A DNA stretch of 64,000 nt from Pleurocapsa sp. PCC 7327. Lineage in GTDB: Bacteria > Cyanobacteriota > Cyanobacteriia > Cyanobacteriales > Microcystaceae. Both the position numbers and the translations under genes were made by a program. The stretch is from positions 4,232,024 to 4,296,023 of the forward strand of contig NC_019689.1 of assembly GCF_000317025.1 (NCBI RefSeq). Reading direction: 5' to 3'. Below, one piece after another: positions 48,370-64,000 of the stretch (its first letter is position 1; every line of letters begins with the position of its first letter). The notes under the pieces were generated by a model, which saw only the letters and a list, made by a program, of their open reading frames with translations, searched no databases and was not told where the DNA came from.

Positions 48370-49449
48370 ATGGCAACTTTTCCATCCCCAGACAACACCC
48401 ATCCCGATTTTCACGAAGTTAGGGGAGGCTCTGCCGTCTCGCGGCGGAGTATTTCTAACTCGGCAATTGAGGAAAGATTGCACCTTGAGTACCTGCTCGC
48501 TCCAAATCTAGCGACAGAGAAAGAAGACGGACAAGATGTTGTTTGGGGACTAACGCAACCGCAAAAATCTTTATCCCCTCGCTATTTTTACGACGACAGA
48601 GGGTCTCAGTTATTCGAGCAAATTTGCAAGCTACCGGAATATTATCCAACCCGGACGGAAGCCTGGATTTTACAAAATTACGCCACAGAAATTGCCCAGA
48701 TGACGGGAATTTGCGAACTGGTAGAACTCGGTAGCGGCAATTCTAGCAAAACTCGCCTGCTGTTGGATGCCTATCGGGGATTGGGTTATCCTTTGCGCTA
48801 CGTGCCAATCGATGTCAGTGCAGGAATTTTAGAAGCGAGTGCCAAACAGTTGCTGGCGGATTATCCGACTTTACAGGTTTATGGGTTGGTAAGTACCTAC
48901 GAACTTGCCCTCCAAAAGTTAATGCCAACGCCGCTACCTTCGCGCACGATTTGTTTTTTGGGAAGTACTTTAGGAAATTTTAATCAAGCGCAATGCGATC
49001 GCTTTTTTGCTCAAGTGACTGCGGCATTACAACCAGGGGATTATTTCCTACTTGGGATAGATTTACAAAAACCAAAAGATATCCTAGAAGCTGCCTATAA
49101 CGACAGTCAGGGAGTAACGGCAGAATTTAACCGCAATATGCTGCGCCATTTAAACTGGCGTTTTGGCGGGAATTTTGACCCAAATTTATTTGAACATCGT
49201 GCATTTTACAACGCGTCTGAAGCGCAAATAGAAATGCATTTGTATGTAAAGCGATCGCACTCGGTTCGTTTGAAAGCTCTCGATTTAACGGTACAGTTTA
49301 GCGAGGGAGAAACCATCCTCACAGAAATCTCTCGCAAGTTCGATCGCGAACAGATGCAGAAATACTTAGCCAAGCAAGGATTAAAACTACGACAAACTTG
49401 GAGCGATCCCAACAATTGGTTTGGCTTGATGCTCGCTCAAGTTCCTTAA
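48370..49449 (+). CDS. egtD: L-histidine N-alpha-methyltransferase (EgtD-like)
   Basis: About 359 residues. The ATG at 48370 follows AGGAGA, so I prefer it to the upstream TTG at 48334. EgtD trimethylates histidine to hercynine, the first step of ergothioneine synthesis. Family motifs: SPRYFYDDRGSQLFEQIC, LPEYYPTRTEAWIL, VELGSGNSSKTRLLL (SAM site), YVPIDVSAGIL and FLGSTLGNFN. Residues of about 19-30 (VRGGSAVSRRSI) come from a 26-bp palindromic repeat that also occurs in nifN. No egtB is adjacent in this window, which is somewhat unusual. Confidence 0.9.
   Translation: MATFPSPDNTHPDFHEVRGGSAVSRRSISNSAIEERLHLEYLLAPNLATEKEDGQDVVWGLTQPQKSLSPRYFYDDRGSQLFEQICKLPEYYPTRTEAWILQNYATEIAQMTGICELVELGSGNSSKTRLLLDAYRGLGYPLRYVPIDVSAGILEASAKQLLADYPTLQVYGLVSTYELALQKLMPTPLPSRTICFLGSTLGNFNQAQCDRFFAQVTAALQPGDYFLLGIDLQKPKDILEAAYNDSQGVTAEFNRNMLRHLNWRFGGNFDPNLFEHRAFYNASEAQIEMHLYVKRSHSVRLKALDLTVQFSEGETILTEISRKFDREQMQKYLAKQGLKLRQTWSDPNNWFGLMLAQVP
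48426..48451. repeat. Dispersed palindromic repeat inside the egtD 5' end
   Basis: A 26-bp sequence starting AGGCTCTGCCGTCTC and ending GGCGGAGTA matches the reverse complement of 12869-12894 (nifN insertion) at 23 of 26 positions. The ends CTCYGC and GCGGAG can pair. Both copies are read in the same frame, giving GSAVS(R/Q)RS in both proteins. Confidence 0.8.
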
Positions 49450-49668
49450 GACTTACGACAATTCGTTTTAGCGAGTCGGGTTAAGGAAAGATAAGAATAT
49501 CGCTCCACTTTCCGATTCCCATGCTAGCCTCATTCTAAAGAAAGATTCCAATTAACTTCCCGCCAAGCGCAAATGAAGGAATCGAGCCAATACTTATCCA
49601 TTAGACGTTGAGTAACCACACTCAATTAGCAGCCTTTATTGTCGTCAAAAAAATTCAGGTGAAGACAT

Positions 49669-50859
49669 ATGAGCGAAGTTTATATCGTCTCAGCAGTACG
49701 CACGCCTATCGGTCGCTTTGGAGGGGCGTTAGTAGATTTTTCTCCAGCCGATTTAGGCGGTCACGCAATGAAAGCCGCCCTAGAGCGAGCAGGCATACCA
49801 GGAACAGCTTTAGATCTGTACATTATGGGCAACGTGTTGAGAGCAGGACACGGACAGGCATTAGCCCGTCAAGCGGCTTTTAAAGCAGGCATTCCCGAAG
49901 CCATAAATGGATATGCAGTCGATATGGTCTGCTCCTCGGCGATGATGAGCTTGATGAATGGAGCTACAGCGATTCGGGCGGGAGAAGCCAATTTAGTTCT
50001 TGCTGGCGGCATGGAATCAATGTCCCAAGCTGGCTTTTACCTCTCCCATCGAGCCAGATGGGGTTACAAGTTTCTCTTGGGCGCTCCAGAGCAACTCGTA
50101 GACATCATGCTCAACGACGGGCTGATGGATGGCGTGACTAGAGAGGGAATGGGAGATCAAACCGAACGGATAGCCGAAGAGCATGGCTTCAGTCGCAAAG
50201 ATGTCGATGAAATCGCCTTCTATTCGCAAAAACGTGCCGCAGAAGCAACAGAACGAGGAAGTTTCAAAAACGAGATCGTCCCGATTGAGATCGAAACGAA
50301 AAAAGGCACCCAAGTAGTCGATGCAGACGAGGGGATCCGTGCCGATACAAGCTTAGAAACTCTGGGCAAGCTCCGTCCCGCCTTTAGAAAGGATGGCATC
50401 CTTACGGCAGGCAATAGCAGTCAGATCTCTGATGGAGCAGCCGCTCTCATTTTAGCCAGTCAGTCAGCCATAGACCAATACGGACTGAAGCCGATCGCTA
50501 AATTTCTGGGAGGAGCTTGGGCAGGCGGTCCGACTTGGCGCTTTACAGAAGTTCCAGTGACGGCAGTGAAGAAGCTCCTAGATAAGCTCGGCAAGCAGCT
50601 CTCGGATTTTGAGCTGGTTGAGAATAACGAGGCATTTGCCGTCAACAGTTTACTGTTTAATAAAGTGCTGGGAATTCCTCTCGACAAGCTGAATGTCAAT
50701 GGAGGCGCGATCGCGCTGGGACACCCCATCGGTGCTTCTGGCGCGCGGATTGTCGTCACCTTGCTCAACGCTCTCAAAGAGCAGGATAAAACTCTCGGTT
50801 TGGCAGCCCTCTGTCACGGGACGGGCGGCGGAACAGCGGTCGCGATCGAACGGGTGTAG
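49669..50859 (+). CDS. phaA: Acetyl-CoA acetyltransferase (beta-ketothiolase) PhaA
   Basis: A 396-residue thiolase joining two acetyl-CoA to acetoacetyl-CoA, the first step of polyhydroxybutyrate synthesis. The nucleophilic cysteine is Cys88 in VDMVCSSAMMS, where the family more often has CSSG or CGSG. The remaining active-site motifs are ELVENNEAFAVNSLL, GALGHPIGASGAR-type sequence (IALGHPIGASGARI) and LCHGTGGGTA with the second cysteine. It precedes phaB by about 185 bp of TCATTTGTC-type repeat DNA. Confidence 0.95.
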   Translation: MSEVYIVSAVRTPIGRFGGALVDFSPADLGGHAMKAALERAGIPGTALDLYIMGNVLRAGHGQALARQAAFKAGIPEAINGYAVDMVCSSAMMSLMNGATAIRAGEANLVLAGGMESMSQAGFYLSHRARWGYKFLLGAPEQLVDIMLNDGLMDGVTREGMGDQTERIAEEHGFSRKDVDEIAFYSQKRAAEATERGSFKNEIVPIEIETKKGTQVVDADEGIRADTSLETLGKLRPAFRKDGILTAGNSSQISDGAAALILASQSAIDQYGLKPIAKFLGGAWAGGPTWRFTEVPVTAVKKLLDKLGKQLSDFELVENNEAFAVNSLLFNKVLGIPLDKLNVNGGAIALGHPIGASGARIVVTLLNALKEQDKTLGLAALCHGTGGGTAVAIERV

Positions 50860-51043
50860 TCATTTGCCATCGGTCATCGGTCATTAGTCACCAGTCATCG
50901 CTCGCTGATGACTGGTGACAAAGGTAAATACAAATACCTTCCGTTCCGCCAATGACAAAGGACAAATGACAAAGGACAAAGGCGAAGCCGAGGCAGGTTC
51001 CCTGCGTCCAGGGGAACGTCGGACAAATGACAAAGGAGGAATT

Positions 51044-51766
51044 ATGGTATCTCTGGGATTGGAAGATAAAGTTGTGGTTGTCACGGGCGGTAATCGCGGG
51101 ATTGGCGCTGCCATTGTCAAGTTGCTGCAAGAATTGGGAGCCAAGGTAGCCTACACCGATATCGCGATCGACGGCGGTCCTAGCGGCGTATTAGCCATTA
51201 AAGCTGATGTGACCAAGCTGGAGTCGATGGAAGCGGCAGCAAAACAGATCGAAGAAAAGCTTGGACCCGTTTACGGGATCGTTGCCAACGCGGGGATTAC
51301 CAAAGATAACTTTTTTGCCAAATTGACCCCTGAAGATTGGGATGCAGTAATTAACGTCAATTTAAAAGGCGTTGCTTACACGATCAAGCCCTTTATCGCC
51401 GGAATGTACGAACGGGGAGAAGGGTCTATTGTTGGCATTAGTTCGATTTCGGGCGAGAGGGGCAACCTCGGTCAGACTAATTACTCTGCAACTAAAGCCG
51501 GTGTCATTGGTATGATGAAATCTCTCGCCAGGGAAGGCGCTCGCTATAAAGTGCGAGCCAACGCTGTAGCACCGGGATTTATCGACACGGAAATGACTTT
51601 GGCAATGCCTGAAAAAGTCAGAGATAAAATTACTGCCGAAATTCCTCTCGGTCGCTTTGGCAAGCCTGAAGAGGTCGCTTGGGCAGTGGCATTTCTACTT
51701 TCTCCAGTTACCAGCAGCTTTGTGACCGGAGAAGTGCTGCGCGTCAACGGTGCCCATCATACTTAA
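51044..51766 (+). CDS. phaB: Acetoacetyl-CoA reductase PhaB
   Basis: About 240 residues, short-chain dehydrogenase family. The ATG at 51044 follows AAAGGAGGA; the frame extends upstream only through repeat DNA. The NADPH-binding glycine motif is TGGNRGIGAA (residues 14-23); NAG is in VANAGITKDN; the catalytic serine and Tyr-x-x-x-Lys are in GISSISGERGNLGQTNYSAT followed by KAG. It reduces acetoacetyl-CoA to (R)-3-hydroxybutyryl-CoA, the substrate of the PhaEC polymerase encoded at 57.5-59.8 kb. Confidence 0.94.
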   Translation: MVSLGLEDKVVVVTGGNRGIGAAIVKLLQELGAKVAYTDIAIDGGPSGVLAIKADVTKLESMEAAAKQIEEKLGPVYGIVANAGITKDNFFAKLTPEDWDAVINVNLKGVAYTIKPFIAGMYERGEGSIVGISSISGERGNLGQTNYSATKAGVIGMMKSLAREGARYKVRANAVAPGFIDTEMTLAMPEKVRDKITAEIPLGRFGKPEEVAWAVAFLLSPVTSSFVTGEVLRVNGAHHT

Positions 51767-51941
51767 TTAAGAGCAATAAGAAAATGGAAGGAGTCAAGGA
51801 GATCCACAAAGAAGAGGTATGCAATCTCCTTGGGGATGGAGAGACAGTGGGAGGAGAAGCTAACCAAATCATCCTCCCCAGGTGGAAGCTCTGGAGACCT
51901 ACATCCTTCATCCTTCCTCCCTCCACTGACTAAGCTTGTCT

Positions 51942-53435
51942 CTAGTCGTCGTCGTCAAGGCGAGCGAATTCTTCTAATTCTCGATAAGCTTGCTTGAGGC
52001 GAGCATAGTGAGCTTCTTTAATTTCCTCAAGCGCTTCTGTATCGACGAGGTGGCGATACACCGAATTAACTAATTCCGCATGATAGGTTTCGCGTTCGTT
52101 ACTGTAGTCAATCGTCACGCGAGAGCTATTATATTCATCGTCGGTATAGAACTGCTTCGCTTCGGTAGACGCAGCCATAGCAGTTGTTGACGATTGTCCG
52201 CCAGAAATCGCCATGGAGACGGCATCAAAATATCCGGTGCCGACTTCGCGCTGGTGGCGCGTTGCCGTATAGCCGTGAACCTCGCTAGCAAATTCGGCTT
52301 CCTGCATTTGGGAGTAGGCAGCCATGCCGCTTTGAGCATAACCGCGAGCCAACTCAAACATGCTGTAGTTGAGAGCGTGGAACCCAGCTAGGGTGACAAA
52401 TTGGAATTTATATCCCATTGCTCCGAGTTCTTTTTGGAACTTGGCAATGGTGGACTCGTCTAGGTTGGCTTTCCAGTTAAACGAGGGAGAGCAGTTATAA
52501 GCCAGCAGCTTGCCAGGATACTTGCTGTGAATCGCTTCTGCAAACAGGCGGGCTTCTTCCAAATTCGGCGTAGAGGTTTCCCACCATAGCAAGTCGGCAT
52601 AGGGGGCATAAGACAAGCCGCGAGCAATGCAGTGAGCAAGACCGGAACCGGGTTTGAGGCGATAGAATCCTTCAACCGTTCTTTCTCCCGTAATAAAGGG
52701 GCGATCGCGCTCGTCCACATCGCTGGTAATTAGCGTGGCACTTTCTGCATCGGTGCGAGCAACGACTAGCGTAGGGACTCCCATCACGTCTGCCGCCAGC
52801 CGTGCGGCGTTGAGGTTGCGAATGTGGGCGGCTGTGGGAATTAGAACTTTCCCGCCGAGATGACCGCATTTCTTTTCAGAAGCGAGTTGATCTTCATAGT
52901 GTACGGCAGCAGCACCAGCCTCGATATAGGCTTTCATGATTTCAAAGCTGTTTAAGGGACCGCCAAATCCAGCTTCTGCGTCGGCGACGATGGGCGCAAA
53001 CCAGTGGATATTGCCTTTTCCCTCCAGGTGTTGAATTTGATCGGCTCGCTGAAAAGTTCGGTTGATGCGACGGCACAATTCCGGACCGCTATTAGCCGGG
53101 TAGAGGCTTTGGTCGGGATACATGGCTCCGGCGACGTTAGCGTCGGCTGCTACTTGCCAGCCAGATAGGTAGATTGCCTTGAGTCCGGCACGTACCATTT
53201 GCATAGCCTGATTTCCCGTCACTGCGCCCAGCGCGTTGATGTAGTCTTCGCTGTGCAGGAGTTCCCAAAGCCGATTGGCTCCCATTTCAGCTAAGGTGTA
53301 GCAAATGGAAATCGAGCCGCGTAGTTTCTGTACGTCTTCGGGGGTATAATTGCGCTCGATCCCGTCGAAGCGACCTTTAGGGGCATGGGGAACGAGTTGT
53401 TCAAAGGTTAGTTGGCGTTGGCTAAGTTGACTCAT
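51942..53435 (-). CDS. aceA: Isocitrate lyase
   Basis: A 497-residue lyase that splits isocitrate to glyoxylate and succinate, bypassing the decarboxylating steps of the citric acid cycle. The catalytic loop [13 protein letters not shown] is present at about residue 210. [19 protein letters not shown] and [13 protein letters not shown] carry metal- and substrate-binding residues, and [10 protein letters not shown] is conserved. The gene is followed 105 bp upstream on the same strand by malate synthase, giving a complete glyoxylate shunt. This pathway is rare in cyanobacteria. Confidence 0.95.
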
Positions 53436-53539
53436 CTGCTCGTAATTCTCCTCTGGTTAATCTCAAAAATTGACAAAAGATTCCTCACCCGATCGCAAAC
53501 GTTGATGAGATCGGTTAATCGTTGCGCCAATCGGTTCGG

Positions 53540-55171
53540 CTAGTTAGAAAAAGTAACGAGGTGCCGATAGGCAGGTAGCGTTAAGAACTCTTCAAAGCGC
53601 TCGGAAGTTACCAGCTCTGTGAAAAGCTCTGTGGCGCGATCGAAAGTAGCCGTCCAACTGCTGCGATCGGCAATTTCTCGACGCAGTGCCGCAATTTCTT
53701 CTTCCAAAATGGTTTGGAAGAGGGCGCGATCGACAGTGCGACCGTCCTCTAATTTTGCCTGGTGGCGCAGCCATTGCCAAACCTGGGCGCGACAGATTTC
53801 AGCCGTAGCTGCGTCTTCCATCAGGTTATACAGAGGCACACAACCATTTCCAGCCAGCCAAGCCGTTAGGTATAAAATCCCGACGCGAATGTTATTGCGA
53901 AGACCGCCTTCAGTAATTTTCCCCCTTGGGATGGCGAGCAGATCCTCTGCCGTAATGGTGATATCATTCAGGAGAACAGACAGTTGATTTGGACCCGTCA
54001 TTTGTCTGTCAAACACCTCGCGTGCGATGGGAACGAGCGCGGGGTGTGCTACCCACGTGCCGTCGTGACCGTCGCCGACTTCCCGCTCTTTATCGGCGCG
54101 TACCTTGGCAAAGGCAGCTTCGTTAGCTGCGGGGTCGTTTTTGATCGGGATCTGAGCTGCCATTCCGCCCATGGCAAAAGCACCGCGACGATGGCAGGTT
54201 TTGATTACCAGTCGGCTGTAAGAGCGCATGAAATGACACGTCATGGTCACTTCATTGCGATCGGGCAAGACGAAATCGGGGCGATTGCGAAACTTTTTGA
54301 TAAAGCTGAAAATGTAGTCCCAGCGACCGCAATTGAGACCGACGATATGATCGCGCAGTTCGTATAGAATTTCGTCCATCTCAAAAGAAGCGAGAATGGT
54401 TTCAAGGAGGACAGTCGCCTTGATAGTCCCAATCGGCAATCCAAGCGCTTCCTGAGCCGCTACAAAAACTTGGTTCCACAAAGCCGCTTCGTACCTATTT
54501 TCCAGCTTGGGCAGGTAAAAATAGGGACCAGTGCCGTTTTCGATTAGCTTGCAGGCATTGTGAAAGAAATAAAGCCCAAAGTCGAATAGCGAACCCGACA
54601 TGGGACGACCGTCTACTAGAACGTGTGATTCTAGCAGATGCCAGCCACGGGGTCGAACGATCAAAACGGCAGTTTTTTCGTTGAGCTTGTATTCTTTTCC
54701 AGTTTTAGAATCGGTAAAGCCAATGGTTCGGTTGACGGCATCGCGCAAATTAATTTGCCCGGATACCATATTGTCCCAGGTCGGACTGTTGGAATCCTCG
54801 AAATCAGCCATAAAGGCATTAGCCCCTGAGTTGAGGGCATTAATGACCATCTTGCGATCGGTCGGTCCGGTGATTTCAACGCGACGGTCTAGTAAATCTT
54901 GGGGAATTGGCGCAATTTTCCAGTCGCCGTTGCGGATCGCTTCGGTTTCGGCGGGAAAGTCCGGCAGTATGCCAGCATCAAATTGCTGCTGAGCATATTC
55001 TCTAAGTTTGAGCAATTGCTCGCGTTCGGCACCAAAACGGCGTTGCAACATAGCGATAAACTCTAGCGCCTCTTTTGTCAAAATTTCAGCATATTCTGCC
55101 GATACTTTGCCGAGAAGATTTACTCCATTGACTATTTGATTATCTTTCTGTACGGGAGCGGTAAATGTCAT
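53540..55171 (-). CDS. aceB: Malate synthase (isoform A type)
   Basis: A 543-residue enzyme that condenses glyoxylate with acetyl-CoA to malate. Family segments: VEITGPTDRKMVINALNSGA, NAFMADFEDSNSPTWDNMVS, LIVRPRGWHLLE, KATVLLETILASFEMDEIL (catalytic region) and GLNCGRWDYIFSFIKKF. It is the first gene of an aceB-aceA pair read leftwards, divergent from the RHH/pha side. Acetyl-CoA released from stored polymer could enter the C4 pool through it. Confidence 0.95.
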   Translation of the reverse strand: MTFTAPVQKDNQIVNGVNLLGKVSAEYAEILTKEALEFIAMLQRRFGAEREQLLKLREYAQQQFDAGILPDFPAETEAIRNGDWKIAPIPQDLLDRRVEITGPTDRKMVINALNSGANAFMADFEDSNSPTWDNMVSGQINLRDAVNRTIGFTDSKTGKEYKLNEKTAVLIVRPRGWHLLESHVLVDGRPMSGSLFDFGLYFFHNACKLIENGTGPYFYLPKLENRYEAALWNQVFVAAQEALGLPIGTIKATVLLETILASFEMDEILYELRDHIVGLNCGRWDYIFSFIKKFRNRPDFVLPDRNEVTMTCHFMRSYSRLVIKTCHRRGAFAMGGMAAQIPIKNDPAANEAAFAKVRADKEREVGDGHDGTWVAHPALVPIAREVFDRQMTGPNQLSVLLNDITITAEDLLAIPRGKITEGGLRNNIRVGILYLTAWLAGNGCVPLYNLMEDAATAEICRAQVWQWLRHQAKLEDGRTVDRALFQTILEEEIAALRREIADRSSWTATFDRATELFTELVTSERFEEFLTLPAYRHLVTFSN

Positions 55172-56359
55172 TGTCGTTTCTCGCTTTTTAGTATTACCGA
55201 TCTCTACTTATAGCCAGTCTTGTTTGACTTTTCGTGCGTGAAAATAACGCAAAATTAAGTAAAGATACCTACAATAAATACAGCCCTTTTCTAAAAATGA
55301 AAAACCCCTCACACCTATCTTTTTTAATAGGCTGTATCGAGAATTTGACGAACTAGCAAAGTTTTATTGACTAGGTGGAGTTATATAGGCATTTGTTCAC
55401 CTAACCTAACAGCTTAGTCATTTTTGGGAGATTATCGTCGATCCCCAAAGATAACTGTATTTGGTTATATGGAATTTTAACAAAAAATCTTATTAAGTTT
55501 AGAGATTTTTCTCAAGATATTAACAAGATTTTAATAATCTACACTCATTATAGTTTAACCTCAAGTTTTTGGCAGGCGATCGCGTTTCCTAGAACATTTT
55601 TTTACAGTCAACTATGTTATTCAGTGTGTAACGATTAAGATTTTTTTATATATACTATCGCTGCTCGATCTTCTTGTTTTGATTAACAGGGTTATTCAGT
55701 GTAAAATTAATATCAATAATGTTTAATAAGGCGAGATAGAGTCAAATCCATCTAGCTTTTTTTCTATGAGTAGAAACAACTAATAAATAAAAAAATTGTA
55801 TTTTGAGAACTATTGTTCGATCGATTTAACAAAACTAATTTTAAGTTCGATCGATCGTCAAAGGCGTTCTATTGTCAAAAAGAGTGAGGATTCTAGTTAA
55901 CTGACAAAACTCAAATCGCCCTCACCCTAACCCCTCTCCCAGAGCGGGAGAGGGGCTTTCAACTTAAGACTTTGTCCTGAAGTTCCTTCGTCCCTTGTGG
56001 GAGAAGGGATTTAGGGATGAGGAGTCAAATCGTGAGACTGGGTATTGGGTTATTAATATGCAATAGATTTTACAAAGTAAGACAGTGTTTACAGCCATGG
56101 TTGCGTTTGATTCACCAAAAGTGACTGTCGCCCATTCCAGGTGCGAAATAGTTATTAGTCATTGGTATAAGTGACAAGTGACAAAGGACACGAATGGGGG
56201 AAATGCATGGCAAAGGCAAATGGTATTTGTCCCAATACCTTGTCTGTACTACACTGCTCGATCGTTGCTCGCAAATTCTAGAAATTGCAGAAAGCTCCAT
56301 CTCGCAGACAAAGTGACTGGGAAAATATTAACTTCTGCCCTGGAGCTTCTGCCTTCTGC
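55172..56359. other. Long intergenic region right of aceB
   Basis: About 1.2 kb with no convincing gene. It should hold the aceB promoter. 55896-56022 is a partial copy of a MITE-like repeat, listed separately. AT-rich stretches at 55200-55860 contain GATCGATC-type sites but no recognisable RNA gene. Short frames near 56112-56300 are not coding-like. Confidence 0.5.
55896..56022. mobile_element. MITE-like repeat, partial copy
   Basis: It begins GTTAACTGACAA at 55896-55907, continues ACTCAAATCGCCCTCACC, a CCCCTCTCCC...GGGAGAGGGG hairpin, and ends near GATTTAGGGATGAGG. The reverse complement of 60912-61060 has the same order, so the two are inverted copies about 5 kb apart, flanking the RHH-phaE-phaC-patatin genes. 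This copy lacks the right terminal repeat. Confidence 0.75.
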
Positions 56360-56698
56360 CTACTGTTTTTTAGCCGGGATGAGCTGTCGTTTCAAATTGT
56401 AGGTGTAGGCTAAAAATTTGTTGTCAATATAGTCTTTAATTTGCCGTTCTAAGTGTCTTTGATAGCGTTGAAGTGCCGTATTGATTCTTTCGTCGATAAT
56501 GTCTGGCGCGCGATCGTCGCTAGACTGCAATTGCATCTCGTGTTGTACTAAAAATTGCTCGATCGCATCCAAAATCACTTGAGAGCGATTAGGGTTTCTT
56601 CCTGCTCGACGCGATGGATACAATTTCTGTGCCAGCAAATCGATGCGTTCCAATGTTTCGGGTGGAATGCGGATAGATACTAAGGGGGATTTTGTCAT
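56360..56698 (-). CDS. Ribbon-helix-helix (CopG/MetJ-like) protein
   Basis: A 112-residue protein. Residues 5-55 fit a ribbon-helix-helix DNA-binding domain: a beta strand LVSIRIPPETLERIDLLAQK and a basic turn with RNPNRSQVILDAIEQFL as helix 2. The C-terminal part (INTALQRYQRHLERQIKDYI) is helical and amphipathic. It lies between the glyoxylate-shunt genes and phaE, on the opposite strand from phaE, so it could regulate either. It may equally be an antitoxin-type protein, but no toxin gene is adjacent. Confidence 0.7.
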   Translation of the reverse strand: MTKSPLVSIRIPPETLERIDLLAQKLYPSRRAGRNPNRSQVILDAIEQFLVQHEMQLQSSDDRAPDIIDERINTALQRYQRHLERQIKDYIDNKFLAYTYNLKRQLIPAKKQ

Positions 56699-57549
56699 TT
56701 CTATTAATTTTTACCTCATCTGTTTTACATTGTATAACATAGTCATACTAAATGTCGTCACCCCAACGTGAGAACTCGTTACCCAACCGTTGCTCTATTG
56801 AGATGGCAGCATGACTTGCGAGCGCTCCTTGCTTTTTTGTGTCGCTCAAAGTACTTGTGCAGAGATAAAAAGTCTGCATCTAAAAAAATAAAAATATGGA
56901 AAATTCTACTTTAGAAATCGATAAATATCTTAGTTTTGCCGTTTTCTTGGGATATTTTAGCAAAATCTGCTAAATTTTTAGTTGGGAATTTTCACAGTGC
57001 GCGATCGCTTCCAAGCAATCCCGAACAAAATCCGAACTCAATAATTTGTCTAGATCTCTATATTTCTAGAATAAATTAAGATTTTAAGATTTCCAGATGA
57101 GAAATATAATCTTTATAAAGATTTAAGATTAAGTCATCATTACCAGTATGATGTTAAGAAATGTTATTGTTACTCTAACAAGAGTAAGAAGCGCTCAGCT
57201 GTGGTGGGATGGCGGTCAAGCTCTGGGGTCATTCATGCAAAATGTCTAAGAAAGAGAATTTTATAGAGCGATCGAATCTGTTTCTGGTTCAAAATAACCG
57301 ATTGACAAAAAAGAAAAAGTAGGCGAGCTGCGATCGTCAATTCTTGACGATCCCTTAATTCTAAGATAGTCAGTTATCTAGTAGATATAAAATAGTAAAT
57401 GGAGCAAGAATAGAGGTAAATGCGCAACAAATTTAAATTTTTTCTAAAGAATTAAAGCCATGTCTAACTAAAGATAGAAGAAAGGAATAGATTAACACAG
57501 AGTAGAGTCACCGAGCAAAATTTTGTTTGTACTAAATTGAGGAAAGATC
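56699..57549. promoter_or_regulatory. Divergent region between the RHH gene and phaE
   Basis: About 850 bp of AT-rich DNA with promoters expected for both genes. I see no strong -10/-35 pair, riboswitch or ORF. GAGGAAAGATC just before 57550 gives phaE its ribosome site. Confidence 0.45.
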
Positions 57550-58641
57550 ATGGTAGAAACAACGAATCACTGGAGTGAGATGACCAACGATCTCGTTCGA
57601 GCTTGGGCTGATACGGGAACTCAAATGTGGAAAAGCTGGTTTAACTTGATGGGACTAGCACCAACTGCTGAGACGGTTGCCGATGCCAAACCGGCATTCA
57701 AGTACGTTGCCCAGCGATTTGTAGATAATCAAGACCTGTTTGTGCGCTTTCTCAGATTATCCTATAAAGCCTGGACGGATATTTTTCCCAAGGTAGAATC
57801 GGGCGAAGACTGGCAACAGACATTGAGCAAATACACCGAGCAGATTCGCCAGCAGTTTGACCAGTTTTTCACGGGAACGCTTAGAGTGAGTCAAGATACA
57901 GCCCAGTTGTGGCAGCTATACTTAAAAGAAACGCAGAAATTTAACCAGCTTTGGGCATCTGCTCTCCTGTCGTCCTCTGGATTGATTAGTAAGACGGTCA
58001 CGGGAACCAGCACGCCTTGGATCGAGCTAAATAACCTCTACTGGAACTTACTGTACGAAGAAACCTTTGGCAGCTTGATGCAAAGCCCCATCCTCGGACC
58101 GACTCGCGAGTTCAATGGTAAGTTGGTACGAGCTTTCGATGCCTGGACAGATCTTTATCAGGCGACCATCAATTATCAAATCGTGCTAGCCAACGTCCAA
58201 ATTCGTTCTTTTGAACAGTTGATGCGGGAGTTGGTTTCTTTAGCCGAAAAGGGCAAAACAGTGAAAAACTGGCGAGAGTTTCAGGATATTTGGAGCCAGG
58301 TTGCCGACGACGTTTTTGCCCAGGCGTTCTGCGATGAAGAGAACCTCAAGATTCGGGGTAAGTTCCTCAACTCCCTTAATACCTATAGGCTCCAACAGCA
58401 AGAGCTGTTAGAATTGTGGATGAAACTAGCGGGAATGCCCGTGCGCAGCGAAGTAGACGAGATGCATAAGAATATTTACGAGCTGCGTAAAGAGGTCAAG
58501 AACCTGAAAAAAACTTTGGCGAGGTATGAGGCGAGCGATCGCGAAAACCAAGAAGTGCTCAAGGAACTCAAGGCTCTCAAACAAACCCTACTTGCCTATG
58601 AGAGTAGCGAGCCACCAACCCAGCCACAAGCCCAAGATTAA
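57550..58641 (+). CDS. phaE: Class III polyhydroxyalkanoate synthase subunit PhaE
   Basis: A 363-residue non-catalytic subunit that binds and activates PhaC. It is mostly helical and tryptophan-rich at the start (LVRAWADTGTQMWKSWFNLM). It ends in a coiled coil at about residues 305-355 (YELRKEVKNLKKTLARYEAS, then LKELKALKQTLLAYE). Length and layout fit cyanobacterial PhaE. phaC follows 21 bp downstream, so they form one operon. Conserved central segments such as WIELNNLYWNLLYEETFG and PILGPTREFNGKL are also present. Confidence 0.93.
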   Translation: MVETTNHWSEMTNDLVRAWADTGTQMWKSWFNLMGLAPTAETVADAKPAFKYVAQRFVDNQDLFVRFLRLSYKAWTDIFPKVESGEDWQQTLSKYTEQIRQQFDQFFTGTLRVSQDTAQLWQLYLKETQKFNQLWASALLSSSGLISKTVTGTSTPWIELNNLYWNLLYEETFGSLMQSPILGPTREFNGKLVRAFDAWTDLYQATINYQIVLANVQIRSFEQLMRELVSLAEKGKTVKNWREFQDIWSQVADDVFAQAFCDEENLKIRGKFLNSLNTYRLQQQELLELWMKLAGMPVRSEVDEMHKNIYELRKEVKNLKKTLARYEASDRENQEVLKELKALKQTLLAYESSEPPTQPQAQD

Positions 58642-58662
58642 CCTCAATAGGAAATAGGACTG

Positions 58663-59823
58663 ATGCATTTTGATAGTCCTACAAGAAAAATTCATCTAGC
58701 GCAGTTAGATAAAGAGGAAACAAAAGATATGCTGCCGTTTTTAACTCAGATACGCCTTGAAGATGTGAGCCACGAGTACACCGAACTAACTAAAAAAGTC
58801 CTTCAAGGCATTGAAAATCTAAGTCGCTTGCGAGAGGAAGATATTGAAATCGGCGCTACGCCTAAAGAAGCGGTTTACAAAGAGGATAAAGTGATTCTAT
58901 ACCGCTTCAAGCCGATGGTCGAGCAGCCTTTGAGCATTCCCCTCCTAATTGTTTATGCTTTGGTTAACCGTCCCTATATGGTCGATCTGCAAGAGGATCG
59001 ATCCCTGGTTGCCAATTTGCTCAAACTGGGTTTGGATGTCTATTTGATTGACTGGGGATACCCCAGCAGAGCCGATCGCTGGTTAACTCTCGACGATTAC
59101 ATTAATGGCTATATCAATAACTGTGTCGATTTCATCAGAGAAAAGCACGGTTTGGAGAAAATTAACCTTTTAGGGATTTGTCAAGGGGGAGCTTTCAGTC
59201 TATGCTACTCTTCCCTTTATCCCGAAAAGGTGAAAAATTTAATCGTCATGGTTGCGCCAGTAGATTTTAACATGCCCAACACCTTGCTCAACATGCGCGG
59301 AGGCTGCACCCTTGGGGCAGAAGCTTTGGATGTGGATCTGATGGTCAAGAGCCTGGGCAATATTCCTGGCGATTTTCTTAACCTTGAGTTTTTGATGCTC
59401 AAACCCCAGCAGTTAGGAATTCAAAAATACCTTGACTTTCCAGAAGTCATGACCAGCGAAGACAAGCTATTAAACTTTATGCGGATGGAAAAGTGGATCT
59501 TTGACAGCCCCGATCAGGCAGGGGAGGCATACCGACAGTTCATGAAGGATTTTTATCAGGAAAATAAACTCATTAAAGGGGAAGTGATGCTCGGCGATAA
59601 GCGAGTGGATCTAAAAAACGTGCGGATGCCAGTCTTGAACCTTTACGCCGAAAAGGATCATCTGGTAGATCCCGAATCTTCTAAAGCACTAGAAAAATAC
59701 GTGGGAACAGACGATTATACGGTGCGCTCCTTCCCAGTCGGTCATATCGGCATGTATGTCAGCGGCAAGGTACAGCGAGATTTGCCGCCTACAATCGTCG
59801 ATTGGTTAAAGGCACGGATGTGA
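58663..59823 (+). CDS. phaC: Class III polyhydroxyalkanoate synthase subunit PhaC
   Basis: A 386-residue alpha/beta-hydrolase-fold polymerase that polymerises (R)-3-hydroxyacyl-CoA on the granule surface. The lipase-like box is GICQGG with the nucleophile Cys173. The other triad members are Asp in AEKDHLVDPESS (about residue 327) and His in FPVGHIGMYVSG (about residue 356). YLIDWGYPSRADR and the C-terminal LPPTIVDWLK are typical. An alternative start at an internal ATG (residue 23) is possible, but the given ATG follows AGGAAATAGGA-like sequence. Confidence 0.95.
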   Translation: MHFDSPTRKIHLAQLDKEETKDMLPFLTQIRLEDVSHEYTELTKKVLQGIENLSRLREEDIEIGATPKEAVYKEDKVILYRFKPMVEQPLSIPLLIVYALVNRPYMVDLQEDRSLVANLLKLGLDVYLIDWGYPSRADRWLTLDDYINGYINNCVDFIREKHGLEKINLLGICQGGAFSLCYSSLYPEKVKNLIVMVAPVDFNMPNTLLNMRGGCTLGAEALDVDLMVKSLGNIPGDFLNLEFLMLKPQQLGIQKYLDFPEVMTSEDKLLNFMRMEKWIFDSPDQAGEAYRQFMKDFYQENKLIKGEVMLGDKRVDLKNVRMPVLNLYAEKDHLVDPESSKALEKYVGTDDYTVRSFPVGHIGMYVSGKVQRDLPPTIVDWLKARM

Positions 59824-59901
59824 ATCTCATAGTTGGCTGCTGGCGATAGAGTTGACTTTGCAGACGTTTAGAGACGTAGATAGTATGCTACGTCTCTACC
59901 T

Positions 59902-60897
59902 GTGAGAGGCTATTTCTCAATTCACAACAGTAAGGACTTAGAAAAAATGCGAGAAAATGGTGAAAAGCGGCGGGTTGCGCTCGCCTGTCAAGGAGGTGGT
60001 AGCCATACGGCGTTTACTGCCGGAGTTTTGAAAAGAATCCTCAAACAAGCAGGAGAAGAGTTGGAAATTGTGGCTCTGAGCGGAACTTCAGGAGGCGCTA
60101 TCTGCGCTCTCTTAACTTGGTATGGTCTGCTCTTGGGAAGTCAACAGAAAGCGATCGAACTGCTCGATACTTTTTGGCGCGATAATTCTGCTACGTCGTG
60201 TTGGGATAGTTATCTCAACAACAGCCTTGTTTGGGCTTCTCGCCTTAGTAGCGTTTTTTCACTGCCCGAAGTTAGCCCGTATTTTTACCCCAATTGGGGT
60301 CAGCAGATCCTCAAGCAACTGTTGAAAAAGCACGTTCGATTTGACAAAATCGGGGAACTGCTCGACGAGTCAAGTCCCGTGTTAATTGTGGGAGCGGTCA
60401 ACGTCCTTGACGGTCGTTTTAAAGTTTTTAAGAATGCTGAAATTACTCTAGAGGCGATTCTCGCCTCAGCCGCGATTCCCATTTTATTTAGAGCCGTGCG
60501 AATCGGACAAGCGGCGTTTTGGGATGGGCTGTTTACGCAAAACCCCCCGATAAGAGACTTGCCAGATGCCAAACCCGACGAGATCTGGGTCATCCAAATC
60601 GAGCCGCCAGCTCGCAAGGAGGAGCCAAAGTCCGTAGAAGACATACGCGATCGGCGTACCGAACTCTCTGGTAATCTTTCCCTAGAACAGGAAATCCATT
60701 TTATAGAAAAGATCAATCAGTTGCTCCAAAGCAAGCTCCTTATAGATAGCAAGTACAAGCCTATTGAAGTCAAGCGAATTATGATGCTTCGCGAGCTTGA
60801 TTATTCGTCCAAAATAGATCGCAGCCCTTCATTTATCCAGAGTATGATGGCTTATGGTGAAACAGAGGCTGAAACCTTCTTGAAGAGTTATCAATGA
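59902..60897 (+). CDS. Patatin-like phospholipase family protein
   Basis: Up to 331 residues; the frame can start at GTG 59902 or at ATG 59947 (MRENGEKRRVALACQGGGSH), which I find about equally likely. The oxyanion loop is CQGGGSHTAFTAGV, the nucleophile serine is in LSGTSGGAICALL, and the dyad aspartate is probably in FWDGLFTQNPP. Patatins hydrolyse acyl esters. The position right after phaC suggests a role at the granule surface, for example lipid or polymer turnover, but that is inferred from location only. Confidence 0.88.
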   Translation: MRGYFSIHNSKDLEKMRENGEKRRVALACQGGGSHTAFTAGVLKRILKQAGEELEIVALSGTSGGAICALLTWYGLLLGSQQKAIELLDTFWRDNSATSCWDSYLNNSLVWASRLSSVFSLPEVSPYFYPNWGQQILKQLLKKHVRFDKIGELLDESSPVLIVGAVNVLDGRFKVFKNAEITLEAILASAAIPILFRAVRIGQAAFWDGLFTQNPPIRDLPDAKPDEIWVIQIEPPARKEEPKSVEDIRDRRTELSGNLSLEQEIHFIEKINQLLQSKLLIDSKYKPIEVKRIMMLRELDYSSKIDRSPSFIQSMMAYGETEAETFLKSYQ

Positions 60898-60911
60898 AAA
60901 TAAAACATCTG

Positions 60912-61060
60912 GTTGACTGACAAATCTTTATCCCCTCATCCCTAAATCCCTTCTCCCACAAGGGGCGAAGGGACTTCAGGCAAAAGTTTTAAGTGGAAAG
61001 CCCCTCTCCCAGAGCGGGAGAGGGGTCGGGGTGAGGGCGATTTGAGTCTTGTCAGTCAAC
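60912..61060. mobile_element. MITE-like element with 12-bp terminal inverted repeats
   Basis: 149 bp bounded by GTTGACTGACAA at 60912-60923 and TTGTCAGTCAAC at 61049-61060. It has no ORF. The interior holds CCCTCATCCCTAAATCCCTT, a CTTCTCCCACAAGGGG segment and a GAGAGGGG hairpin. A partial inverted copy lies at 55896-56022. No clear target duplication is visible at its ends. Confidence 0.8.
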
Positions 61061-61072
61061 TAGATAAAACAT

Positions 61073-61894
61073 TCAATTTCCAATAGGAGTCAACTTTGTT
61101 TCCAGAATCAGGCAAAAATTCCGTAAGGACGGTAGCCAAAATAGCAGCCACCACCCTCCTAGCCGCCAAATGTTACCCCAGCGTTCTGGATAGGCATCTA
61201 ACAGGGGCTGCACCCTCACTAAAGATAGTCCTAGCGCTGCCACATCCCGTTCGTCTTCTATAAACCATTTCATTGGCGCTCCCACACGGGTGGCTTTTCT
61301 CTCGTTGTACTGTTGGTAACCCTTTCCGCCAATATCTAAAGCTAGTGTAGCACCAGCAAACTTTTCTCGAAGTCGTTGGACTAATTGCTTAATTTCTGAC
61401 TCTTCAAAATAGTAAAACAACCCCTCAGCAATAAATAGAATATTTTCAGGCGAAATGCCAGGAATTTTATCCATCCAAGCCCAATCCAGTACCGAATATG
61501 CCAAAAATTGATGTTCGCTCGTCTGGGTGTCAAGCATAAGGCGGATGTCAATTACTTCTGGCAAGTCTAGCTCAATCCACTGAGTTTTTCCCACTCCCAC
61601 GCGATAGTAACGAGAAGATAAACCAGCTCCCAGTTCTACGACTAGAGAATTAGGGCGAGCGGCAATGTGCCGTGCTGTAATGTCATCCAATAGTTTTGTC
61701 CGCACGCTAATGCCGATTTGATGGCTACAGCCATACCAATCTTCTAAACCAGCATCCCAAGGCAGAGATTGAAACCATTCAACCGCGCGGGGATCTCGAA
61801 ACAAGGCATCGGCACGCGCATGTTCCTCCGCTCTTGCCCGCAGGGTAAAAAGCAGGGTACATGAAACTCCACTCAGTCGCTTTTCCTCTAACAT
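61073..61894 (-). CDS. SAM-dependent methyltransferase, LCMT/Ppm family
   Basis: A 273-residue class I methyltransferase of the leucine carboxyl methyltransferase-like family. The family's conserved SAM site is VVELGAGLSSRYYRVG with ELDLPEVIDIR next, and ILFIAEGLFYYFEESEIKQL is the other signature. Members methylate carboxyl or hydroxyl groups in natural-product and other pathways. The substrate here is unknown. It is read leftwards between a MITE and the phasin-like gene; it may simply be a neighbour of the pha genes. Confidence 0.82.
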   Translation of the reverse strand: MLEEKRLSGVSCTLLFTLRARAEEHARADALFRDPRAVEWFQSLPWDAGLEDWYGCSHQIGISVRTKLLDDITARHIAARPNSLVVELGAGLSSRYYRVGVGKTQWIELDLPEVIDIRLMLDTQTSEHQFLAYSVLDWAWMDKIPGISPENILFIAEGLFYYFEESEIKQLVQRLREKFAGATLALDIGGKGYQQYNERKATRVGAPMKWFIEDERDVAALGLSLVRVQPLLDAYPERWGNIWRLGGWWLLFWLPSLRNFCLILETKLTPIGN

Positions 61895-61913
61895 TTGTAT
61901 TCTTCTAAATGGA

Positions 61914-61939
61914 AACCCTCAAGCGCGATCTTGAGGGTT
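61914..61939 (-). terminator. Hairpin terminator of the phasin-like gene
   Basis: AACCCTCAAG at 61914-61923 pairs with CTTGAGGGTT at 61930-61939 around a 6-nt loop. On the minus strand the hairpin is followed by TTTCC. It lies downstream of the phasin-like gene at 62023 and upstream of the methyltransferase start. A very similar hairpin is at 63819-63848. Confidence 0.7.
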
Positions 61940-62022
61940 GGCTTTATTACAGTAGGTTTACGGCAGATCTTTTGAACCCTTTTTAGTTGGCTGCAAGAAG
62001 CACTCAAAGGTTGAGTGCAAAT

Positions 62023-62448
62023 TTAATTAACACTATTGACTTGTGTTATAGCACTACTGACTTGTGTTTTCTGCATCATATCGAAATAGCTATTCCAGAG
62101 CTGCCGTTGGGTTTCCACTATCGTTGGTGTTTTTTGCAGCAAGTCAAAATAGTTATTTACAAGCTGCTTTTGGGTTTCCATCACCGTTGGTACTTTCCGC
62201 AGCAAGTCAACATAATTATTCCAGAACTGTCGTTGGATTTCTATTAGCATCTGAGCTGTTTTCTCTTGAGCTTCAAGGGAAGTTTTTACGACTTCTTCTT
62301 GGAATTTCATTGTTTTATCGAAATTTTCCGAGAAATTGAGTGTATTGTTCCCAACAGTAGTAGGTATTGTTTCGAGCCAAATGTCGAAATACTTTTTCTG
62401 CCAATTGGCGATTTCTTGTTGATAATCTTCAAATACTTTGGTATCCAT
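62023..62448 (-). CDS. Phasin-like protein with 21-residue repeats
   Basis: About 141 residues starting MDTKVFEDYQQEIANWQ; a start 27 bp upstream (62475) is possible but would begin inside a hairpin. The C-terminal half has three 21-residue repeats: EIQRQFWNNYVDLLRKVPTV, ETQKQLVNNYFDLLQKTPTI and ETQRQLWNSYFDMMQKTQ, each an amphipathic helix with aromatic residues. This and the neighbourhood of phaE-phaC suggest a phasin, a granule-coating protein. A second, related gene starts beyond the right edge (63920 onwards). Assignment as phasin is inferred, not proven. Confidence 0.75.
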   Translation of the reverse strand: MDTKVFEDYQQEIANWQKKYFDIWLETIPTTVGNNTLNFSENFDKTMKFQEEVVKTSLEAQEKTAQMLIEIQRQFWNNYVDLLRKVPTVMETQKQLVNNYFDLLQKTPTIVETQRQLWNSYFDMMQKTQVSSAITQVNSVN

Positions 62449-62475
62449 TGATTTTTTGACCGCTAGATACCCCAT

Positions 62476-63101
62476 CCTTTTTTGTGGATGGAGAGGAAGC
62501 GGGGCGGGATATTAACCACTTCCTAATTTTTCCCTCTCATCCATTAATATTATAGGCTTTCGCCTTAAATTGAAGTCTTAAAAATAACATCTCGAAACTT
62601 ACAATTCTTATCAAAACTTGACAAAGTCTAGTCAAATTCTCATTTAGGTAGGAAACGATGTTTAATTATTTGTTGAAAAATGTTAAATAGATAACAGTCC
62701 CAATGAGTTGAATTGGTTACAATCTATCATTAGAGAGATGAAAAGATTAAAGATGTAACAGTCTTTACACAACTGAGTAAGGATTCACTTTTCTCGCTAG
62801 TATTGTTCTGTAAAGCTTTTGATTCTTATTCAACAATAGCTTTACCAGAGTTTTACCAAGAATTAAATTAGTAAAGAAGTTTGTGATTCTCTAGATGAGT
62901 ATTTGTGTAGATATTGCGCTAAAAATAATCATCAAAAAGAATTATCGCGTCTAGCGAGTTACTATGTACTACTTCTTGACTAGGATTCAAAAACCTTGAT
63001 AGTCGATCTAAACCTAAGTTCCAAAGAGAATCTGCCGAACAGACCTTATCTATCAATTTGTAGATAGATTTATAGACAGACGAGGTTGAAATAAATGCAC
63101 C
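62476..63101. other. Intergenic region between the phasin-like and SGNH genes
   Basis: About 630 bp. CCATCC at 62473-62478 pairs with GGATGG at 62486-62491, a hairpin like the TnpB-element right end at 10379-10402. Otherwise AT-rich with divergent promoters expected; no gene or RNA seen. Confidence 0.45.
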
Positions 63102-63803
63102 ATGCCAAATCTTTCTTCTCCCACGATGACATCAATGCTTCAACGCCATCGCTTTCCGCTAAGGATTATTGCCCTTGGGGATAGCCTGATCTATGGCTTT
63201 GGCGATCCTGTCGGCGGCGGTTGGGTAGAACGTCTGCGAAGGCAGTGGATGCATCTCGATGGTTCCGGTCACGCTCTCTATAATTTGGGCATTCGCGGGA
63301 ATGGTGTGGCTCAAGTGCATCAGCGACTCGAACAGGAGTTTCGCCAACGGGGCGAGCTGAAAAATCGAGTCCCAGATATGATTATTCTCTCGGTGGGAGT
63401 TAATGACTCGCCGAGAGTGGGTCGTCGAGACGGACGCACCTTAACCGATTTTGGAGTGTTTATGGCACAGCTAGCCGACCTGTTAGATCGAGCACAGCAG
63501 TTGTGCCCAGTCATGTTTGTGGGGATGACACCAGTCGATGAGAGCAAGATGCCCTTTCTTGACTGTTTGTATTACAATCGCGCCGAACAGTACCGCTATA
63601 AAGAAGCCACCAGAATTGCTTGCAAGCTGCGCCGAATCCCTTACTTAGACATTTTTGACCTGTGGATGGAACGCGGAGAAAGCTGGATAAAATCGCGCCT
63701 TTGCCCAGACGGACTTCATCCGAACGTTAAAGGCTACGAAGCTTTGCTAGAAGATATTCGGGCTTGGGAACCGTTTTCAAAGCTCTTTGTTCGCCATTCT
63801 TAG
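63102..63803 (+). CDS. SGNH/GDSL-type hydrolase
   Basis: A 233-residue esterase-like protein. Block I is IIALGDSLIYGFGDPVGGGW with the nucleophile serine, the Gly block is NLGIRGNGV, block III is SVGVNDSP with the Asn of the oxyanion hole, and block V is CPDGLHPNVKGYEAL with the Asp-His pair. There is no signal peptide, so it is probably cytoplasmic. Its start could also be one of the Met codons at residues 9 or 12. It lies between two phasin-like genes on the opposite strand, so a link with polymer or lipid turnover is possible but only inferred. Confidence 0.88.
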   Translation: MPNLSSPTMTSMLQRHRFPLRIIALGDSLIYGFGDPVGGGWVERLRRQWMHLDGSGHALYNLGIRGNGVAQVHQRLEQEFRQRGELKNRVPDMIILSVGVNDSPRVGRRDGRTLTDFGVFMAQLADLLDRAQQLCPVMFVGMTPVDESKMPFLDCLYYNRAEQYRYKEATRIACKLRRIPYLDIFDLWMERGESWIKSRLCPDGLHPNVKGYEALLEDIRAWEPFSKLFVRHS

Positions 63804-63818
63804 CTGATTTCTGTGGAA

Positions 63819-63848
63819 AACCCTCAACTGCGATCGCAGTTGAGGGTT
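63819..63848 (+). terminator. Hairpin after the SGNH gene
   Basis: A perfect 30-bp palindrome: AACCCTCAACTGCGA at 63819-63833 and its complement at 63834-63848. It includes a GCGATCGC core and is followed by CAGTTT. It lies between the SGNH stop and the convergent second phasin-like gene, so it may terminate both. Confidence 0.7.
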
Positions 63849-63919
63849 CAGTTTAGAATTAATATTTAACTGCCCGCCGGCTGGGCGCCGGAATACTGAC
63901 CGCAACCTTCCTACCCAAT

Positions 63920-64000
63920 CTAACCAGAAGTCGTAGCAGGTGTTTTGCGCATTGTTTCAAAATAATCACTCCAGAATTGCTTTTGAGTTTCTATCAGCAT
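63920..64000 (-). CDS. Second phasin-like protein, C-terminal end only
   Basis: The last 26 codons of a leftward gene, ending TAG at 63920-63922. The visible sequence is MLIETQKQFWSDYFETMRKT followed by PATTSG. It is clearly related to the MLIEIQRQFWNNYVDLLRK region of the phasin-like protein at 62023. The gene continues past the right edge. Confidence 0.8.
   Translation of the reverse strand: MLIETQKQFWSDYFETMRKTPATTSG

Follow-up and report, generated by a model that had tools for sequence, protein, structure and literature searches.

The glyoxylate shunt, formed by isocitrate lyase (ICL, aceA) and malate synthase (aceB), is present in few cyanobacteria. Its activities were shown in Chlorogloeopsis fritschii, according to excerpts of three papers (PMC5160925, PMC7871529, PMC7281370), which cite Zhang and Bryant (2015) for the glyoxylate cycle of strain PCC 9212; one excerpt describes the role of the shunt in photoautotrophs as unclear (PMC7871529) and another names the ICL of Cyanothece sp. 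PCC 7424/7822 (PMC7281370). The polyhydroxybutyrate (PHB) genes phaABEC of C. fritschii have been expressed as a gene cluster (excerpt of PMC12174442), and the Synechocystis patatin-domain protein Slr0060 localizes with PHB proteins, its deletion having neither raised PHB nor given a depolymerase phenotype (excerpt of PMC7203880). Here we analyse a block of Pleurocapsa sp. PCC 7327 in which shunt and PHB genes lie together. It belongs to a window of 64,000 nucleotides, of which the part studied, positions 49669-64000, corresponds to 4,281,692-4,296,023 of the genome (4,986,817 bases, one contig). A first inspection from the letters and open reading frames, called here the sequence-only reading, had stated that the shunt is biochemically established in C. 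fritschii.

Zhang and Bryant are also said to have observed that acetate raises the transcripts of both shunt genes and the PHB yield, and that the shunt occurs only in nitrogen fixers. In Escherichia coli, aceB and aceA stand together in aceBAK under a dedicated regulator, IclR. The comparison of genomes presented below confirms that the block is real and conserved and that the linkage of aceBA to pha is more than chance. We consider it probable that this is a block for storing and reusing acetyl-CoA, in which a small RHH protein is the partner of aceBA, and whose linkage had one or few origins.

Gene content and conservation of the block

True ICL was found in 7 of the 388 genomes of the window's order, which bears out the earlier statement that the shunt is rare in cyanobacteria; it was present in 4/4 genomes of the window's own genus and in 5 of the 217 genomes of the family of G334. 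A protein search of 386 phylum genomes gave matches to the ICL query in 49. True ICL (at least 54% identity over about 400 residues) accounted for two order genomes and for 12 'same phylum' genomes, which are probably non-photosynthetic, judging from their kinship class; in 35 of the 49 the matches were all short and of the PrpB/PEP-mutase type (E 9e-4 to 2e-12), and these genomes were discounted. The ICL-bearing photosynthetic set used throughout comprises 11 genomes: G000, G601, G632 and G621 (window genus), G599, G550, G334, G695, G696, HT-58-2 (= G714) and G785.

The pha genes lie close to aceA in eight of these 11 genomes (G000, G601, G632, G334, G695, G696, HT-58-2 and G785; 20-30 kb read). 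The neighbourhood comparison that had been set in advance as the check on the linkage thus found it kept in relatives. The linked genomes fall in two families, f1 and f5 (genus g50 of f5 is presumably Chlorogloeopsis), with different internal gene order. In four of the five f5 genomes the order is RHH-aceB-aceA-phaA-phaB-phaE-phaC, all in one direction, and in HT-58-2 RHH is placed 3' of phaC. In the window genus aceA-aceB-RHH is inverted and sits between phaB and phaE; the pha run of G632 is broken by a contig end. Class III phaC (E 1e-100 or better) was found in 65 of the 388 order genomes, including all seven with ICL; the overlap has a naive p of 3e-6, and of 0.003 when counted by genus.

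In the window the block spans 49669-62475, and its order is phaA, phaB (plus), aceA, aceB, RHH (minus), phaE, phaC, patatin (plus), LCM and a phasin-like gene (minus). The features are:

49669-50859, plus strand: phaA, acetyl-CoA acetyltransferase (NF042967 equivalog, 778 bits, cut-off 740)
51044-51766, plus strand: phaB, acetoacetyl-CoA reductase (NF042966 equivalog, 468 bits, cut-off 436)
51942-53435, minus strand: aceA, isocitrate lyase (NF011645, 764 bits, cut-off 562)
53540-55171, minus strand: aceB, malate synthase A (TIGR01344, 831 bits, cut-off 594)
55172-56359, no strand: RHH-aceB spacer, AT-rich non-coding leader of 1.19 kb (no open reading frame of at least 80 codons)
56360-56698, minus strand: RHH (CopG-type) protein, candidate aceBA regulator (PF01402 RHH_1, 27.3 bits, cut-off 20.5)
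56699-57549, no strand: divergent RHH/phaE intergenic region of 0.85 kb, with TACAATGTA at -36 of RHH
57550-58641, plus strand: phaE, class III polyhydroxyalkanoate (PHA) synthase subunit (TIGR01834, 227 bits, cut-off 155)
58663-59823, plus strand: phaC, class III PHA synthase catalytic subunit (TIGR01836, 547 bits, cut-off 365)
59902-60897, plus strand: patatin-like hydrolase, candidate intracellular PHB depolymerase (PF01734, 71 bits, cut-off 27.7)
61073-61894, minus strand: LCM/TIGR00027-type S-adenosylmethionine methyltransferase (PF04072, 38 bits)
62023-62475, minus strand: phasin-like protein of 150 residues (PHA_synth_III_E, 22.8 bits, under the cut-off of 25.7)
63102-63803, plus strand: GDSL/SGNH hydrolase (PF13472, 88 bits)
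63920-64000, continuing to about 64190, minus strand: second phasin-like frame, truncated where the window ends

The sequence-only reading had grouped phaA, phaB, aceA, aceB, phaE, phaC and the patatin gene within 14.3 kb, and each was recovered in its place with a profile score above cut-off; for the six pathway enzymes these are curated NCBIfam cut-offs for a specific function or subfamily. The phaB frame may extend upstream to 50915, with a GTG start. Both subunits of the class III synthase, PhaE and PhaC, are adjacent and over cut-off, and the score of the PrpB model on the window ICL is far below its cut-off. The proteins contain KKCGH (ICL), GICQG (PhaC), and GTSGG with DGL (patatin), which we take to be, respectively, the ICL active-site loop, the catalytic Cys box of PhaC and the patatin dyad motifs. 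Two phasin-like genes had also been claimed: both frames are there, but the first scores under cut-off and the second, which lies beyond the SGNH hydrolase gene 3' of the block, runs past the window end. No phasin family profile exceeded its cut-off for the first protein, which is called phasin-like from its place and its similarity to neighbours; small proteins related to it are also found near other ace-pha blocks. The LCM-type methyltransferase and GDSL/SGNH hydrolase genes, absent from the sequence-only reading, recur near such blocks in other genomes. An Rfam scan of 49000-64000 gave no match at E 0.1.

The RHH protein and its association with aceBA

The RHH protein has 112 residues; eight family members all agree at 32 of the first 50 positions and vary in the second half. 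It accompanies aceBA in 11/11 ICL-bearing genomes, in families f1, f5 and f11, and adjoins it in ten; in HT-58-2 it is within the block, four pha genes away. Where ace and pha are apart (G599, G550, G621), RHH stays with aceBA. RHH matches occurred in 12 of the 388 order genomes: in all seven aceA-positive ones (E 3e-22 or better), and as weak relatives in five of the 381 aceA-negative ones (E 4e-12 to 6e-4). Only G491 (E 6e-4) has a match among the 58 phaC-positive, aceA-negative genomes. The idea that RHH tracks pha was ruled out by setting the list of RHH matches against the distribution of phaC.

Because RHH is with ace where ace and pha are apart, and given its co-occurrence with and adjacency to aceBA, it is best read as a putative dedicated regulator of aceBA. 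This replaces the proposal that it was a regulator shared by ace and pha, to which the pattern searches also lent nothing: no motif common to the upstream regions of aceB, RHH, phaA and phaE was found with the two hand-derived patterns that were tried. From the protein type and the place of the gene, RHH would act as a repressor of aceBA. Among the matches listed in a literature search, no report of an RHH regulator of the glyoxylate shunt was met.

The first pattern, ACTGCT-NN-AGCAGT, came from inspection by eye of the sequence upstream of aceB. The aceB regions of G550, G334 and HT-58-2 have it almost intact (0 or 1 mismatch, each with 0/200 shuffles as good), and that of G785 has it with two mismatches (5/200 shuffles). 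For the other seven aceB regions, window included, between 31 and 200 of the 200 shuffles did as well; in the RHH and phaE regions at least 96 of 200 shuffles were as good, and the best phaA region, that of G695, had three mismatches (28/200 shuffles as good). The pattern, which was derived from the same data on which it was scored, is a lead only. The second, TACAATGTA or ACAATGTA, is located at -35 to -37 of RHH in 5/5 f1 genomes and in 0/6 others; it could be nothing more than a -10 element. The spacer between RHH and aceB is AT-rich and 0.85-1.35 kb long in 9/9 genomes with RHH upstream of aceB (1182 bases in G696); RHH is downstream of aceB in G599 and HT-58-2. In the window genus a short hairpin-like element of the type TTTGGGG ... 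CCCCAAA, read by eye, stands in the leader no more than about 300 bases from aceB.

Structural searches were uninformative for RHH: the AlphaFold2 model (mean predicted local distance difference test, pLDDT, 46) was too poor for use, and in a PDB profile search cytochrome P450 chains (E 0.14-0.15) ranked ahead of NikR (E 0.46). The RHH and ICL models were built from the window, L003 and alphaproteobacterial sequences only. Two neighbours of RHH were recorded in other genomes. In G550 (L123:1241-3685) a phosphoenolpyruvate (PEP) synthase gene (1251 bits, NF005057), gluconeogenic, lies upstream of and divergent from RHH-aceBA. In G695 (L219:1011-5445) [NiFe]-hydrogenase-like genes, under the NCBIfam cut-offs for named types, reach near RHH.

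The tail of cyanobacterial isocitrate lyases

The window ICL carries a 72-residue C-terminal tail beyond position 425 (window 51945-52160), and the other cyanobacterial ICLs have 54-93 residues beyond this position (10/10 loci). The corresponding length is 6-16 residues in 79/79 alphaproteobacterial ICLs, among the matches listed, and 4-31 in 12/12 other Cyanobacteriota; thus all 91 outgroup ICLs among these matches end 4-31 residues past position 425, and none has a tail as long. The last 25 or so tail residues are conserved among cyanobacterial ICLs, and KKCGH is invariant in ten cyanobacterial sequences. From these alignments, the tail appears as a clade-restricted feature of photosynthetic-cyanobacterial ICLs. 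No solved chain covers it among the 24 distinct sequences found in a PDB search: 14 near full-length matches end at residue 429-434, and none of the other ten, for which the best stretch only was given, reaches it. The predicted ICL model (mean pLDDT 50), whose alignment left out rows L016, L033, L065 and L066, was too poor for a fold search. The tail was not mentioned in the excerpts of the glyoxylate-shunt literature that were met, no search having been aimed at it.

In a tree made by a quick method from 53 ICL rows (8 of the 11 photosynthetic cyanobacteria, 33 of the 79 alphaproteobacterial loci and the 12 other Cyanobacteriota), photosynthetic cyanobacteria form one clade (SH-aLRT 98) beside alphaproteobacteria, and the other Cyanobacteriota stand apart from them (support 99). 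Descent of the cyanobacterial ICL from that of the other Cyanobacteriota was rejected on this tree, which sets those 12 apart, some on long branches. The best 80 ICL loci listed, which may omit records near the window, include one cyanobacterium (HT-58-2, 82%) and 79 with alphaproteobacterial names. A more adventurous proposal, which we think doubtful, is that RHH would be a C2-responsive repressor private to the cyanobacterial shunt and the tail an added control or docking piece (e.g. for the PHB granule surface or malate synthase), together tying shunt entry to polymer turnover.

Function and origin of the linkage

The storage-and-reuse function is a plausible and partly supported reading of the block. 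Surplus acetyl-CoA would be converted to PHB by the products of phaA, phaB and phaEC. AceA and AceB would return acetyl-CoA, whether its source is external acetate or the polymer, to C4 acids with no loss of CO2, and PEP carboxykinase (PEPCK), encoded elsewhere in the genome, would take C4 acids to PEP. The most likely binding sites of RHH would be its own promoter and the long leader of aceB, and it would switch aceBA in response to local C2 supply, the proposed target being aceBA and not pha. PEPCK is present in 10 of the 11 ICL-bearing genomes (missing in G632, which is 91% complete) versus 9 of the 17 phaC-positive, aceA-negative genomes, out of 58, whose pha neighbourhoods were read. PEPCK also lies within about 1-12 kb of pha in the aceA-negative G415, G395 and G493 (L184, L181, L176), hinting at a wider clustering of pha with gluconeogenic genes.

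Type-2 short-chain PHA depolymerase was over cut-off in 4 of 28 genomes, all of them f5 ICL-bearing (G695, G696, HT-58-2, G785), and far under the cut-off of 280 in seven more. Where read (G696, HT-58-2, G785), the gene is at the outer end of the block; the depolymerase genes at f5 block edges are at L222:2496-3551, L220:40-939 and L224:5327-6358. Next to the f5 depolymerases stands a protein some 490 residues long, the C-terminal end of which is phasin-like and which matched nothing in Pfam at E 0.001 or in NCBIfam at E 1e-10. Since no type-2 depolymerase is over cut-off in the window genome (best 37 bits), only the patatin is left inside the block as a candidate hydrolase for the putative mobilization of polymer, which the sequence-only reading had set in the dark or during acetate use.

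This lack of a type-2 depolymerase over cut-off is one of several observations that weigh against the storage-and-reuse block as we propose it. Linkage is not required: in G599, G550 and G621 aceBA-RHH has no pha in the 20 kb read, phaC being 1.3 Mb from aceA on the same contig in G599 and on other contigs in G550 and G621 (8-10 kb read each side). The usual state of phaC-positive order genomes is to be without aceA (58/65). In the window phaAB and phaEC are on one strand and aceBA on the other, which precludes a single operon there, and the failure of the two patterns to reveal a common motif counts on the same side. The difference in PEPCK is marginal (Fisher p 0.042, ignoring kinship). The accessory genes are uneven: LCM has no match in linked G632, none in the 20 kb read of linked G695, and only a 46-residue fragment in the near relative G601 (L120 around 18654-18791), the window copy being intact; and in G334, G696 and HT-58-2 the patatin next to phaC resembles a second window-genome patatin (74%, G696) more closely than it does the block patatin (44%).

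A rival reading is mere co-transfer: aceBA-RHH and pha would have been gained or kept on a single genomic segment, and nothing but the use of acetyl-CoA would couple them, in regulation or in metabolism. The finding of no operator common to ace and pha agrees with it, and so does the travel of LCM, which has no obvious pathway link, with several blocks: among 25 genomes searched for LCM and patatin (G695, G696 and G785 not included), LCM at 70% identity or more was found in G000, HT-58-2 and G334, all linked, and it is present at the same level in the neighbourhoods of G696 and G785. In a concatenated pha tree of 28 rows the f5 and f11 ICL-bearing genomes form one clade (100/100), and the pha genes of linked f5 genomes do not group with those of G634 and G668, the two further f5 members in the test; a pha clade uniting the window genus and G599, a member of its family, was rejected in the approximately unbiased (AU) test (p-AU 1.8e-7). 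The pha tree fits a horizontal spread of pha together with ace, though loss or hidden paralogy may also account for it. However, the set stays together while its internal order differs between the two linked families, and the flanks are not shared: none of the flanking genes ank, uppP and egtD was found in the stretches read around f5 blocks, so conservation is limited to the block. Further, extra PHB genes (depolymerase, phasin-like genes and a second phaAB) gather at f5 blocks. We hold co-transfer alone to be a possible but rather unlikely account.

A different history would be independent joining, in which aceBA-RHH inserted twice by an ancestral phaABEC, once ahead of phaA, giving the f5 arrangement, and once between phaB and phaE, giving that of the window genus, the clustering being convergent. 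The order phaA-phaB-phaE-phaC is indeed found in 9 of the 17 aceA-negative neighbourhoods (with a 2-3 kb gap after phaA in G131 and G395) and in G599 and G550, the place and orientation of the ace module differ between the two families, and in the three f5 genomes mentioned above the block patatin is not orthologous to its counterpart in the other family; in G785 the block patatin is 73% identical to that of the window. On the other hand, both versions of the block have LCM, phasin-like and SGNH genes around them; SGNH hydrolase is near it in G785 and G334, and also near phaC in the aceA-negative G551, G159 and G518. Among the 25 genomes searched, LCM at this identity is confined to linked ones, as expected of a single ancestral block that was inverted later, and a single pha clade for the window genus and the f5/f11 ICL-bearing genomes was not rejected (p-AU 0.29; the AU-test groups were named after a first tree). 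Independent joining seems unlikely. It appears improbable that RHH was just carried along as a DNA-binding protein of antitoxin-like or plasmid type and is no metabolic regulator, for all its RHH_1 membership and a weak relative in G408 (52% over 52 residues) near an apparent serine recombinase identified by eye, since 55172-57549 holds no other open reading frame of at least 80 codons and since the protein is so constantly associated with aceBA over three families and so conserved in its first half.

The simplest history for the storage-and-reuse block is one ancestral linked block, the inside of which was inverted on one branch; the linkage would have arisen once or very few times, spread with pha among few cyanobacterial lineages and been rearranged inside. 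The conserved tie between shunt and PHB, with one small candidate regulator beside it in 11 genomes, makes the role of the shunt in photoautotrophs testable. RHH-aceBA may offer engineers a native switch to try when adding acetate use to cyanobacteria, and the ICL tail could serve as a marker separating the true shunt enzyme from PrpB/PEP-mutase-type relatives in other cyanobacterial genomes.

What this analysis adds is the association of RHH with aceBA, the ICL tail and the counts of linked genomes. The novelty of the linkage is not established, the shunt and phaABEC in Chlorogloeopsis being already published; no statement of an aceBA-pha linkage was found among the literature matches listed. 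The window differs from E. coli, with its aceBAK and IclR, in having an RHH protein as candidate regulator; an isocitrate dehydrogenase kinase gene was not recognized in the block. As in Synechocystis slr0058-slr0061, a patatin (there Slr0060) is associated with PHB proteins (excerpt of PMC7203880), but that of the window sits after phaC. The window has the same four PHB genes as the phaABEC cluster of C. fritschii (excerpt of PMC12174442), with phaAB and phaEC split by the inverted aceBA-RHH module. Finally, the window shares with the shunt of C. fritschii PCC 9212 the presence of ICL and malate synthase in a cyanobacterium, acetate use being described for C. fritschii (excerpts of the papers cited above), and differs from it in that the organism belongs to another family and carries its ace module inverted inside the pha genes.

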